Shown here in pieces: positions 23,009 to 51,808 of a stretch of 64,000 nt of DNA. The stretch comes from Gemmatimonadota bacterium. Its GTDB lineage: Bacteria; Gemmatimonadota; Gemmatimonadetes; Gemmatimonadales; GWC2-71-9. Within the stretch, counting starts at the first letter, position 1; every line of letters begins with the position of its first letter. The DNA is taken from NCBI GenBank assembly GCA_009692185.1, contig SHZT01000014.1:1-64000 (forward strand). The letters run 5' to 3'. Both the position numbers and the translations under genes were made by a program. The notes under the pieces were generated by a model. The model saw nothing but the letters and a program-made list of their open reading frames with translations. It was not told the origin of the DNA and ran no database searches.

Positions 23009-23923
23009 ATGTCACCCGCGTACCACACCCCGGTCCTCGCCGGCGAGGTCGCCCGCCTGGCGACCGGACTCGCCCGCATCGTGGACGGCACCGCCGGCGG
23101 CGGTGGCCACACGATTCTTTTCGTGGACGCCGGGGCCCAGGTGTTGGCGATCGATCGCGACCCCGACGCCATCACCGCGGCGCGGGCGCGCATCACGAGC
23201 GACCGGGTCCGTTTTTTCGAGGCCGCGTTCGGGTCGGATGACGCGCTTCGGGCCGTCGCCGCATTCCGGCCCCAGTTGGTCCTGCTCGACCTCGGCGTGT
23301 CGTCGCACCAGATCGACCAGGATGCTCGCGGGTTTTCGTTTCGCCGGGGCGCTCCGCTGGACATGCGCATGACCCTGGGCGACGGGCAGACCGCGGCGGA
23401 CCTGCTGAACGAGGCGCCTGAGCCGGAGCTCGCCGACCTGTTCCACGACTACGCCGACGAGCCGCGCTCCCGCCGGCTCGCGGGAGAGATCACGCGCCGG
23501 CGCGCCCACGCGCCGTTCGCCACCAGCGATGATCTCGTCAACGCCATCCGCGCCGTCCTCGGGCCTCGCGCCGGTCCACCCGATTTTGCCCGCCTGTTCC
23601 AGGCTGTCCGCATGGCCGTCAACGATGAGCCGGGCGAGCTGGGCCGGGCGTTGCCCGCGCTCCGCGACGCGCTGGAGCCGGGCGGCGCGCTCGCCGTGAT
23701 CACGTATCACTCCGGGGAAGACCGCGTCGTGAAGCAGGCGTTCCGGGAATGGGCCCGCTCCTGCATCTGTCCGCGCGAACAACCGGTCTGCACGTGCCGG
23801 GGCCGGCCCCTCGGCGAGGCCCACCCCCGCCGCGGGATTGTCCCGCCGGACGACGAGATTGCCGCGAACCCGCGCGCCAGGAGCGCGCGGGTTCGCGTCT
23901 TCCGGACCGCCGATGGCCGCTAG
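23009..23923 (+). CDS. rsmH: 16S rRNA (cytosine-1402-N4)-methyltransferase
   Basis: First gene of the dcw cluster. It uses S-adenosylmethionine to methylate C1402 of 16S rRNA. Signatures are YHTPVLAGEV at the N-terminus, DGTAGGGGHT (AdoMet loop), LLDLGVSSHQ and ITYHSGEDRVVKQ. ATG 23009 starts exactly at the family N-terminus; an in-frame ATG at 22919 would run from the end of the tRNA through a repeat-like stretch. It overlaps ftsL by 11 bases. No mraZ lies upstream. Confidence 0.95.
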   Translation: MSPAYHTPVLAGEVARLATGLARIVDGTAGGGGHTILFVDAGAQVLAIDRDPDAITAARARITSDRVRFFEAAFGSDDALRAVAAFRPQLVLLDLGVSSHQIDQDARGFSFRRGAPLDMRMTLGDGQTAADLLNEAPEPELADLFHDYADEPRSRRLAGEITRRRAHAPFATSDDLVNAIRAVLGPRAGPPDFARLFQAVRMAVNDEPGELGRALPALRDALEPGGALAVITYHSGEDRVVKQAFREWARSCICPREQPVCTCRGRPLGEAHPRRGIVPPDDEIAANPRARSARVRVFRTADGR

Positions 23924-48469: not shown

Positions 48470-49771
48470 ATGCAGGACCATACGCGCATTCGGGACCTTC
48501 CCGCGCTCGTCGGCCAGACGGCGACGATCCGGGGTTGGGTCATGACGACGCGCTCTTCCGGGAAAATCGGGTTCGTGGTGCTTCGGGATGGAACCGGCTA
48601 CCTCCAGGTGGTTGCTTCCAAGGCCGATCTGCCGGAGCCCGCCTGGGAAGCCGTGCGATCCCTGACGCAGGAGACCTCGGTCTCGGTGACAGGGACGGTG
48701 CGCGCCGATGCCAGGTCTCCGGGCGGCGTCGAACTCTCGATGGCCAGCATCGAGGTGATTGGGCCTTCCGTTGATTTCCCCATTACGCCCAAGGAACACG
48801 GCACCACCTACCTGTTTGAACATCGCCACCTGTGGCTCCGGAGCCGGCGGCAGGTCGCCATCATGCGGATCCGCCACGAGGTGGAGCAGGGGATTCGAGA
48901 TTTCTTCTACACCAATGGCTTCGCCTGCGTTGACTCGCCTATCTTGACCGCCGCGATCGGTGAATCGGCGGGTGGTGGGTTGTTCGAAACCGAGTACTTC
49001 GACCTCGGCAAGGCGTATCTCGCGCAGACCGGCCAGCTGTACGTCGAGGCCGCCGCCGCCGCGCTAGGCAAAGTCTACTGCTTCGGCCCCACATTTCGTG
49101 CCGAGAAGTCCAAGACGCGCCGTCACCTCGCCGAATTCTGGATGGTCGAGCCGGAAGTGGCCTGGTACGACTCGAACGACAATATGCGGCTCCAGGAGTC
49201 GTTCGTGGCGTACCTGGTGGAGCGGTGTCTCGAGCGCCGGCAGGAAGAACTCAAGGAGCTGGAGCGGGACACCAAGCCGCTCGAGAACGTCCGGCCGCCG
49301 TTCCCCCGCATTTCCTACACGGACGCCATCGCCAAGCTCCAGTCATTGGGGAACCCAATTCAATGGGGGCAGGACCTGGGCGGCGACGAAGAGACCATCC
49401 TCGCCTCACAGTTCGACCGGCCAGTCTTTGTCTTCAATTATCCGCGCGAAGTCAAAGCGTTCTATATGAAACGGAATCCGGCCGACCCGCGGACCGTGCT
49501 CAACAACGACTGCCTGGCGCCCGAAGGTTTCGGCGAGATCATCGGCGGGAGCCAGCGCGAGGACGACTACGACCTGTTAAAGCAAAGAATAGAAGAAGAG
49601 AAACTCCCGCTCGACTCCTACGGCTGGTACCTGGACCTGCGGAAGTACGGGACATTCGTGCACTCGGGATTCGGGCTGGGGCTGGAGCGGACAGTGGGCT
49701 GGATCTGCGGCACACCGCACGTGCGCGAGGCGATCGCGTTCCCGAGGCAGATGCACCGGCTCCGGCCGTAA
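48470..49771 (+). CDS. asnS: Asparaginyl-tRNA synthetase
   Basis: 433 residues, class IIb synthetase. An N-terminal OB anticodon-binding domain (VGQTATIRGWVMTTRSSGKI) is followed by the class II core with FGPTFRAEKSKTRRHLAEFWMVEPE split motif 2, GGSQREDDYDLL and motif 3 GFGLGLERTVGWI. The specificity call (AsnRS rather than AspRS) rests on overall similarity and on absence of the AspRS GAD insert. The start is 9 bases after a strong promoter; no Shine-Dalgarno is seen, consistent with leaderless translation. Confidence 0.93.
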   Translation: MQDHTRIRDLPALVGQTATIRGWVMTTRSSGKIGFVVLRDGTGYLQVVASKADLPEPAWEAVRSLTQETSVSVTGTVRADARSPGGVELSMASIEVIGPSVDFPITPKEHGTTYLFEHRHLWLRSRRQVAIMRIRHEVEQGIRDFFYTNGFACVDSPILTAAIGESAGGGLFETEYFDLGKAYLAQTGQLYVEAAAAALGKVYCFGPTFRAEKSKTRRHLAEFWMVEPEVAWYDSNDNMRLQESFVAYLVERCLERRQEELKELERDTKPLENVRPPFPRISYTDAIAKLQSLGNPIQWGQDLGGDEETILASQFDRPVFVFNYPREVKAFYMKRNPADPRTVLNNDCLAPEGFGEIIGGSQREDDYDLLKQRIEEEKLPLDSYGWYLDLRKYGTFVHSGFGLGLERTVGWICGTPHVREAIAFPRQMHRLRP

Positions 49772-49774
49772 GAC

Positions 49775-49824
49775 GTGAGACGCAGGAAGTAAGAAGGGGG
49801 GCCTTCTCACTTCTTACGTCTCAC
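49775..49824. repeat. Inverted repeat between asnS and mazG
   Basis: Arms GTGAGACGCAGGAAGTAAGA... (49775-49797) and its imperfect complement (49802-49824) match at 20 of 23 positions around GGGG. The right arm supplies the last codons or stop region of mazG (49821). Word-like make-up (TAAGA, GTGAGACG) resembles other boundary elements. It may serve as a bidirectional terminator of the convergent pair. Confidence 0.6.
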
Positions 49825-50669
49825 TTCTTACTTTCTTTCGCCTCGTCCCACAGCTTGTCGAGCACCTCAAGACCTGCCGTTCCCATATCGATGGACCGCT
49901 CCGCCGCCAGCGCCTCGACTTTCCGAAACCGCTCCACGAACCGCCCGTTGGCTTTTTCCAGCGCGGCGCGCGGATCCACGCCGGCCTTTCGCGCCACGTT
50001 GACGACCGAGAACAGCAGGTCGCCGATTTCGGCGGCGACGCGAGCCGCATCCCGCTTCTCCGTCAGTTCCGCTTCCAGCTCGCCGATTTCCTCGTGGAGC
50101 TTGGCGAGCGGTCCTTTCAGGTCCGGCCAGTCGAAACCGACACCCGCCGCCCGTTCCTGGAGGCGATACGCCATGATGAGGACCGGGAGGGAAGGCGGGA
50201 GGCCGTCGAGCACGCCGGGGCGGTCGGCGCCGCGCTCCGCGCGCTTGAGCTTCTCCCAGGTCGCGGGGTTGTGGCCGGACTCCGTGCTGACCCCGGGCGT
50301 AAGCCCGGGGTTCGGGTCCCCGGGATCCCCGGGCTTACGCCCGGGGTTAGTGGAGTCGGCCTTTTCCGGAAACAGATGCGGGTGTCGCCTCCACATCTTG
50401 TTTTCGATCGCCCGCGTCACATCCTCTGCACCGAACTGTCCGGCTTCCTCGCCCAGAACGATCTGAAACGCGAGGTGCAGCACCAGGTCGCCAAGTTCGT
50501 CCTTGATCTTTTTTGGATCGCCGGCGGACAGGGCCTGGTCCAGCTCGAGGACTTCTTCGACCAGGTAGGACCGCAAGGTTTCGCGGGTTTGCGCGGCGTC
50601 CCAGGCGCATCGTTTGCGGAGGTCTCTCACGAGTTCCACGATGCGTCCAACTGCCGATGGCGCTTGCAT
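49821..50669 (-). CDS. mazG: MazG nucleoside triphosphate pyrophosphohydrolase
   Basis: 282 residues from ATG 50669, chosen because the in-frame ATG at 50717 overlaps the alr start. Two MazG domains: EEVLELDQAL, then KDELGDLVLH (E..E..D metal motif) in the first and HEEIGELEAEL, then AEIGDLLFSVVN in the second. Hydrolyses NTPs to NMP and PPi and can lower ppGpp. Residues ~108-128 (Pro/Gly repeats PGRKPGDPGDPNPGLTPG) are encoded by the palindromic repeat at 50290-50347 in the linker between domains. It shares a 41-base divergent region with alr. Confidence 0.93.
   Translation of the reverse strand: MQAPSAVGRIVELVRDLRKRCAWDAAQTRETLRSYLVEEVLELDQALSAGDPKKIKDELGDLVLHLAFQIVLGEEAGQFGAEDVTRAIENKMWRRHPHLFPEKADSTNPGRKPGDPGDPNPGLTPGVSTESGHNPATWEKLKRAERGADRPGVLDGLPPSLPVLIMAYRLQERAAGVGFDWPDLKGPLAKLHEEIGELEAELTEKRDAARVAAEIGDLLFSVVNVARKAGVDPRAALEKANGRFVERFRKVEALAAERSIDMGTAGLEVLDKLWDEAKESKK
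50290..50347. repeat. Large palindromic element inside mazG
   Basis: ACCCCGGGCGTAAGCCCGG... (50290-50310) and its exact complement (50327-50347) form a perfect 21-bp stem around a 16-base loop that contains a second CCCGGG palindrome. It is read in frame as a Pro/Gly-rich linker in MazG. The size and perfection suggest a recent insertion of a dispersed palindromic (REP-like) element. Confidence 0.8.
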
Positions 50670-50692
50670 TTGCCCATTCACGCCGGTACAAT
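50664..50692 (+). promoter_or_regulatory. Promoter of alr
   Basis: TTGCAT (50664-50669), 17-base spacer, TACAAT (50687-50692), 18 bases before the alr ATG. The -35 overlaps the mazG start codon on the opposite strand, so the two genes share this control region. Confidence 0.65.
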
Positions 50693-50710
50693 ACCGAACC
50701 CTTCGTGACC

Positions 50711-51808
50711 ATGTCAACGCAGACGAGGCCGAGTCAGGCGTGGATGCGGGTAGACCTCGCCAGCCTCGTCGCCAATGCCGTGGTCGTTCAAGCGGCCGGC
50801 CGAGGCGCCCGGCTTCTTCCCTTGCTCAAGGCAGACGCTTACGGGCTCGGCGCGGTGGAAGTCGCGCGGGCGCTGGAAGCGAGCGTTGATCCCTGGGGGT
50901 TTGGGGTCGCACGGATCGATGAAGGGGCGGCGCTTCGGGCGGCCGGGATCCGGCGGCCCGTTCTTGTTTTCACGCCTGCGCGAATCGCGGAACAGGACGC
51001 CTTTCGCGCGCACGACCTGCGCGCGGCGCTGGACGATCCGGCCGTGATTGCGGCGTGGACGTTGCCGTATCACCTGGACGTGGACACCGGCATGAGCCGC
51101 TCGGGCGTGCGGTGGGATGATCCGCGGCTCGCGCGCTGCCGAACGGCGAAGCTCGAGGGGGCATTCACGCATTTCCACTCGGCGGAGGACAACCCCGCGT
51201 CGGTGGAAGAGCAGTGGGGACGGTTTGAGGCGGCCCTGGGGGTGCTGGGTGATCGGCCGAAGCTGGTGCACGCCGCGAATTCCGCGGGCGTCTGGCGGCT
51301 CCAGCAGTCGATGGACCTGATCCGGCCCGGGATTTTCCTGTACGGGACGGCACCGGGGCCGGGCACGCCGAAGCCCAAACAGGTTGCGAGCCTGCACGCG
51401 CGCGTGGTGAGTGTGCGGCGGGTGTGCGCGGGTGAGGGCGTGAGTTACGGCGTCGAGTGGCGGGCGCCGCAGGACACGACGATCGCGACGGTCGGGCTGG
51501 GATACGCCGATGGCGTGCCTCGCGCGACGCAGGGCAAGCTTTCGGTCCTCATCGGCGGAAGGCGTTACCCCGTGGTGGGGCGGATCACGATGGACATGGT
51601 GATGGTGGATGCGGGCCCGGATGGCTCGGTGCGGCCAGGTGACGTGGCCACGTTCATCGGGCGGGACGGCACGGAAGAGATCACCTGGGACGACGTGGCC
51701 GGGTGGGCCGGAACGAACGTGTACGAGATCATGTGCCGGGTGAATCCGCGGGTGGAGCGGGTGTATGTGGGATGGGGCGATGGTGGAAGAAGCGATGGTG
51801 GGGTTTGA
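50711..51808 (+). CDS. alr: Alanine racemase
   Basis: Interconverts L- and D-alanine for peptidoglycan. The PLP-binding lysine is K40 in LLKADAYGLGA. The catalytic Tyr lies in GVSYGVEW, and GRITMDMVMVD and VGLGYADGVPR are conserved. 365 residues. ATG 50711 follows the promoter at 50664-50692. It overlaps deoB by one base (TGATG), forming an alr-deoB-cdd-EutN run; D-Ala supply is thus genetically coupled to nucleoside salvage. Confidence 0.95.
   Translation: MSTQTRPSQAWMRVDLASLVANAVVVQAAGRGARLLPLLKADAYGLGAVEVARALEASVDPWGFGVARIDEGAALRAAGIRRPVLVFTPARIAEQDAFRAHDLRAALDDPAVIAAWTLPYHLDVDTGMSRSGVRWDDPRLARCRTAKLEGAFTHFHSAEDNPASVEEQWGRFEAALGVLGDRPKLVHAANSAGVWRLQQSMDLIRPGIFLYGTAPGPGTPKPKQVASLHARVVSVRRVCAGEGVSYGVEWRAPQDTTIATVGLGYADGVPRATQGKLSVLIGGRRYPVVGRITMDMVMVDAGPDGSVRPGDVATFIGRDGTEEITWDDVAGWAGTNVYEIMCRVNPRVERVYVGWGDGGRSDGGV

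Follow-up and report, generated by a model that had tools for sequence, protein, structure and literature searches.

A palindrome within mazG of a Gemmatimonadota bacterium is very probably a tolerated REPIN-like element

The long palindrome within the mazG gene of this Gemmatimonadota genome is very probably a REPIN-like element. A RAYT-type HUH transposase that works on single-stranded DNA would have spread it, and it would be tolerated in the linker between the two domains of the encoded enzyme. More specifically, the element would be a non-autonomous mobile repeat made up of two tagged hairpins, CTRA-CCCCGGGC-GNNA-GCCCGGGG, arranged as an inverted pair, and its insertion into the interdomain linker would have taken place within the host lineage. 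The insert was presumably tolerated because its in-frame read-through yields a flexible Pro/Gly stretch.

The palindrome was examined by a sequence check and an inverted-repeat scan of the window, the whole stretch of 64,000 nucleotides analysed here. Both bore out the original prediction of exact 21-bp arms at 50290-50347 inside mazG. The arms at 50290-50310 (ACCCCGGGCGTAAGCCCGGGG) and 50327-50347 (CCCCGGGCTTACGCCCGGGGT) are exact reverse complements, separated by 16 nt, and no perfect inverted repeat in the window with a gap of up to 60 nt is longer. The second-longest under the same gap limit is a 15-bp hairpin at 23863-23897. When mismatches are allowed, the arms reach 27 nt with 93% complementarity and span 50287-50350. 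Furthermore, each 21-bp arm folds on its own into an 8-bp stem with a 4-nt loop, laid out as CCCCGGGC-GTAA-GCCCGGGG, and conserved 4-mers occupy the outer ends of the element, CTGA on the left and TTAG on the right (CTAA on the minus strand). The overall order is CTRA-hairpin, 16 nt, inverted hairpin-TYAG, with the following features:

49821 to 50717, minus strand: mazG, nucleoside triphosphate pyrophosphohydrolase; frame of 298 aa, or 282 aa from the ATG at 50669
50287 to 50350, unstranded: complete REPIN-like element (CTGA, hairpin 1, 16-nt spacer, hairpin 2, TTAG)
50287 to 50290, plus strand: foot CTGA, 5' of hairpin 1; CTGA or CTAA in 76 of 88 oriented Gemmatimonadota units
50291 to 50310, plus strand: hairpin unit 1, CCCCGGGC-GTAA-GCCCGGGG
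50311 to 50326, unstranded: spacer of 16 nt, its sequence varying among copies
50327 to 50346, minus strand: hairpin unit 2, equal to unit 1 inverted; plus strand reads CCCCGGGC-TTAC-GCCCGGGG
50347 to 50350, minus strand: foot of hairpin unit 2; TTAG on plus, CTAA on minus

The very stable RNA hairpin that had been predicted is reflected in the computed fold of the minus-strand RNA (101 nt), with a folding energy of -74.5 kcal/mol and z = -8.4 relative to shuffles. An Rfam search matched no family, and promoter and terminator readings returned nothing, including no terminator-like site. A separate palindrome at 49768-49831 (30-nt arms, 87% complementary) lies across the convergent 3' ends of an asparaginyl-tRNA synthetase-like gene and mazG.

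The identity of MazG is supported by Pfam (2.1e-27) and by NCBIfam NF007113 (1.3e-73, above the cut-off). Within it, the palindrome reads in frame as the Pro/Gly-rich stretch NPGRKPGDPGDPNPGLTPGV, residues 108-127 counted from the ATG at 50669. In the predicted structure, residues 108-135 have pLDDT values below 50 between two confident helical halves, and this model identifies them as a disordered linker joining the two halves. Translation and predicted structure agree with the earlier assignment of the palindrome to the interdomain linker. The alignment of MazG with relatives, which the original prediction had proposed as a check, revealed a gap. The insert is missing from all 28 relatives compared, whose linkers measure 10-28 residues vs 40 in the host, and E. 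coli MazG likewise lacks it. None of the linkers of the 28 other mazG genes contains a comparable palindrome, and the nearest relative compared is too distant to fix the exact insertion boundary or target site.

A genome-wide search for the arm, also proposed at the outset, showed that it is multi-copy. With the residues absent from relatives and the arm dispersed in the genome, the notion of an inserted element was upheld; the linker DNA is not conserved in a non-palindromic form, and the arm is not confined to a single site. In the host genome (2.63 Mb, 99.94% complete, 30 contigs), the exact 20-mer core occurs six times, vs zero for a backward-read control, and 13 exact-stem units at eight places are found when any loop is allowed. 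Five of these eight places lie within protein genes or at a gene end: the copies in mazG, mtnA, gpmI and asnB are in frame, and the leuA copy forms part of the C-terminal tail. The hairpin copies translate as PGRKPG, PGLTPG or PGVSPG. Relative to solved structures, the gpmI copy adds approximately 17 residues and the mtnA copy approximately 5, while the asnB alignment breaks near the insert and is less clear than the other two. Judged by GC periodicity, intragenic copies in frame make up 9 of 51 sites, a rough lower bound from a method that misjudges known cases, among them mazG itself. Some copies lie outside genes.

To describe the family more broadly, we scanned one genome per species (84,980 species) for two stems of this type 5-35 nt apart, leaving loop and foot unconstrained. 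Of the 67 stretches obtained, 40 come from records with Gemmatimonadetes or Gemmatimonadota in the title. In these 40, selected by stem only, 88 of the 91 units have, in one orientation, a loop of the form GNNA (GCAA 47, GCGA 22, GCCA 8, GAAA 4, GACA 2, GGCA 2, GGAA 2, GTAA 1). Of the 88 oriented units, 76 have CTGA or CTAA as the foot, and a foot stands on the loop-predicted side in 81 cases and on the opposite side in one. Paired hairpins face tag-outward in 29 cases and tag-inward in 10. The resulting consensus unit is CTRA-CCCCGGGC-GNNA-GCCCGGGG, in which CTRA may act as the guide foot, by analogy with GTAG in known REPs. Most loops fit the RNA GNRA rule and 12 of 88 (GNCA) violate it; cGNNAg is a stable DNA tetraloop. 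As a lead, the GNCA loops and the stability of the DNA tetraloop would point to recognition of the hairpin as single-stranded DNA. Among 288 genomes of the order, 35 contain the tagged hairpin, all within the host's family and with up to 41 tagged units per relative genome; the backward control gave zero everywhere. In Kapaibacteria bins (L081, L090, L096, L098, L107, L119), a similar GC-rich palindrome forms direct tandem arrays with loop CAAG/CTTG, a period of about 53 bp and spacers of about 33 nt.

The Y1_Tnp genes of relatives often have hairpins on their flanks. At five of them (L148, L151, L152, L158, L160), the flanking hairpins belong to the CCCCGGGC-GNNA type, have CTGA feet in most cases, and are inverted relative to each other. 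The five encoded cognate proteins, about 135 aa long, align with the motifs DHVH and Y---Q and score above the cut-off for IS200 (NF033573) and below that for REP transposase (NF047646). A profile (A1) built from these five proteins, whose source genomes had been chosen because hairpins were present, identified a close Y1 relative (E<1e-45) in 11 of the 288 genomes of the order, with one close match per genome. All 11 genes adjoin at least one hairpin of this broad type; the stem or foot is altered in some cases, and seven genes have the exact stem on both sides. Within the family (102 genomes), tagged hairpins are present in 10 of 11 genomes with the transposase vs 25 of 91 without, and they are more numerous where the transposase is present (Mann-Whitney p = 9e-7, Fisher p = 7e-5, both ignoring shared ancestry). 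In a phylogenetic tree, the transposases group by hairpin type: the five cognate proteins cluster with the long-branched L067 (support 99/95), and transposases with other hairpin types fall outside this group. These associations suggest that the Y1 transposase moves the hairpins as single-stranded DNA.

In the 99.94% complete host genome, a search for the cognate transposase found only L066 and L067. The former belongs to another Y1 clade with other flanking hairpins, and in the latter the first HUH histidine and also the tyrosine are apparently missing. The host lineage may formerly have had a cognate transposase that was since lost. The L067 frame (1378-1854), degenerate and Y1 transposase-like, neighbours pyruvate-dehydrogenase-type genes. 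The second Y1 clade (L066 at 1384-1878 with its flanks; L153, L156, L162) is flanked by hairpins whose foot resembles GCCGAG, and the host's family thus contains several types of foot.

The missing cognate transposase in the host, the low number of only 13 units and the CTRA rather than GTAG foot all count against a REPIN reading. The CTRA foot, the GNNA loop and a Y1 transposase that is IS200-like yet single-copy could mark a distinct Gemmatimonadota REP lineage, standing midway from insertion sequences to classical REPtrons, whose hairpins settle repeatedly in linkers (mazG, ctaA) and are kept by selection on nucleic-acid structure. We consider this broader proposal unlikely.

It is also unlikely that the palindrome is a MITE from an ordinary IS200/IS605 insertion sequence, built of its end hairpins, and not a REPIN with a single-copy resident transposase. 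The end hairpins of IS608 lie on the same strand, unlike the mutually inverted hairpins that flank the Gemmatimonadota genes. Furthermore, each genome has one close transposase match for multiple hairpins, and near-identical parent copies were not seen, although draft bins could conceal collapsed copies. The profile cut-offs do favour an IS200 origin, as do the DHVH and Y---Q motifs, which match the published subclass 1.1 (PMC6006769).

The ctaA gene (heme A synthase) provides insight into how long such hairpins persist. In four relatives, a REPIN occupies one loop of ctaA. The orthologues were gathered by protein similarity and hence without selection for perfect stems, although a carrier supplied the query; L103 and L114 were assigned to ctaA by DNA alignment and protein search. 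In pairwise comparisons of carriers, the units are identical at 23-24 of 24 and 25-26 of 26 positions and the spacers at 7-15 of 19, with flanks at 64-84%. The carriers do not group together in the ctaA tree, and other orthologues have different palindromes or none at the same loop. This persistence of unchanged hairpins exceeds the expectation for a purely neutral relic; hairpins can stay intact for a long time through selection, conversion or repeated insertion. To take perfection as a sign of recent arrival or of selection, as originally predicted, oversimplifies in view of hairpins that are 96-100% identical between relatives. Both arms are copies of a single self-complementary unit and match for that reason; their perfection is thus a property of the family rather than a clock. 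Across Gemmatimonadota species, the ctaA loop (L231-L260) harbours different palindromic repeats and is a possible insertion hotspot. In-situ compensatory evolution of the stem at ctaA was set aside, as the alternative stem CCCCGCCC-TNAC-GGGCGGGG is a dispersed low-copy repeat of the genomes concerned.

The same observations bear on whether the mazG hairpin is kept for a function, with mRNA or DNA structure between the domains slowing translation or setting mRNA stability. This would fit the very stable RNA fold, the conservation of orthologous ctaA units above their flanks, the different palindromes that species carry at a single ctaA loop, and the majority of loops matching the GNRA type. 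However, the 28 other mazG linkers do without such a palindrome, the GNCA loops run contrary to the RNA rule, and some copies lie outside genes. The main alternative ctaA palindrome being a dispersed repeat, repeated insertion or replacement can explain the variety at that loop. Overall, we regard a functional hairpin as improbable; nothing points to a function of the mazG copy, which probably has none of its own.

A local origin by replication error (template switch or fold-back copying) outside any mobile family, as the perfect arms and the outer imperfect palindrome GGCCGACTCC / GGAGTCCGGCC flanking the element might suggest, is scarcely credible and already contradicted by dispersed copies. 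The 20-mer core recurs at other sites and in other species under the same foot and loop rule, and complementarity of the outer flanks is no general feature of the copies, its level being reached in 65 of 500 shuffles. The same shuffles gave no support to flank complementarity as a hairpin-target rule.

The preferred reading, a tolerated REPIN-like element, places the mazG palindrome closest to the REP/REPIN and RAYT (TnpAREP) systems of E. coli, Pseudomonas and Stenotrophomonas. Shared features are the short GC-rich hairpin, the 4-nt foot 5' of the stem, the inverted pairs and the dispersed and intragenic copies. A single-copy Y1 gene flanked by the repeat, as in those systems, was seen in 11 related genomes and not in the host. 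In contrast, the foot is CTGA/CTAA (CTRA) and not GTAG/GTGG, the loop is GNNA, the transposase resembles the IS200 model more than that of REP transposases, and the phylum is Gemmatimonadota. Copy numbers also differ, with usually more than 100 per genome for REP/REPINs, compared with 13 units in the host and at most 41 tagged units in relatives. REPs as a rule carry GT[AG]G feet, and class 3 Y1 genes have hairpins with CnGA feet (PMC6006769). The class 3 TnpA-Y1 genes of Planctomycetes and Acidobacteria resemble the present system in that non-GTAG hairpins flank the gene and repeat in the genome (PMC6006769), and the CTGA at most hairpins beside cognate Y1 genes fits the CnGA foot. Their proteins, however, have NHVH rather than DHVH, Y----Q rather than Y---Q, and a median length of 178 aa rather than about 135 aa. 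Rickettsia palindromic elements are likewise palindromic repeats in frame within unrelated protein genes; they differ in sequence and phylum, and those of R. conorii end in CGTC (PMC3733652), while the mazG element ends in CTGA and TTAG.

REP dimers inside genes that encode 20-30 aa have been described (PMC3733652), and intragenic REPs as such are already known. The novelty lies in the CTRA foot, the IS200-like partner and the phylum; a literature search, thin on subscription journals, found no publication on REPINs in Gemmatimonadota. The ctaA linker can serve as a natural experiment to distinguish mere tolerance of hairpins within coding sequences from their maintenance. The family also makes a compact test case, in which transposases sort by their adjacent hairpin and variants of foot, stem and loop form a natural series. 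As a whole, a striking sequence is explained as a mobile repeat, and a system known largely from Proteobacteria gains a further phylum and another foot sequence.
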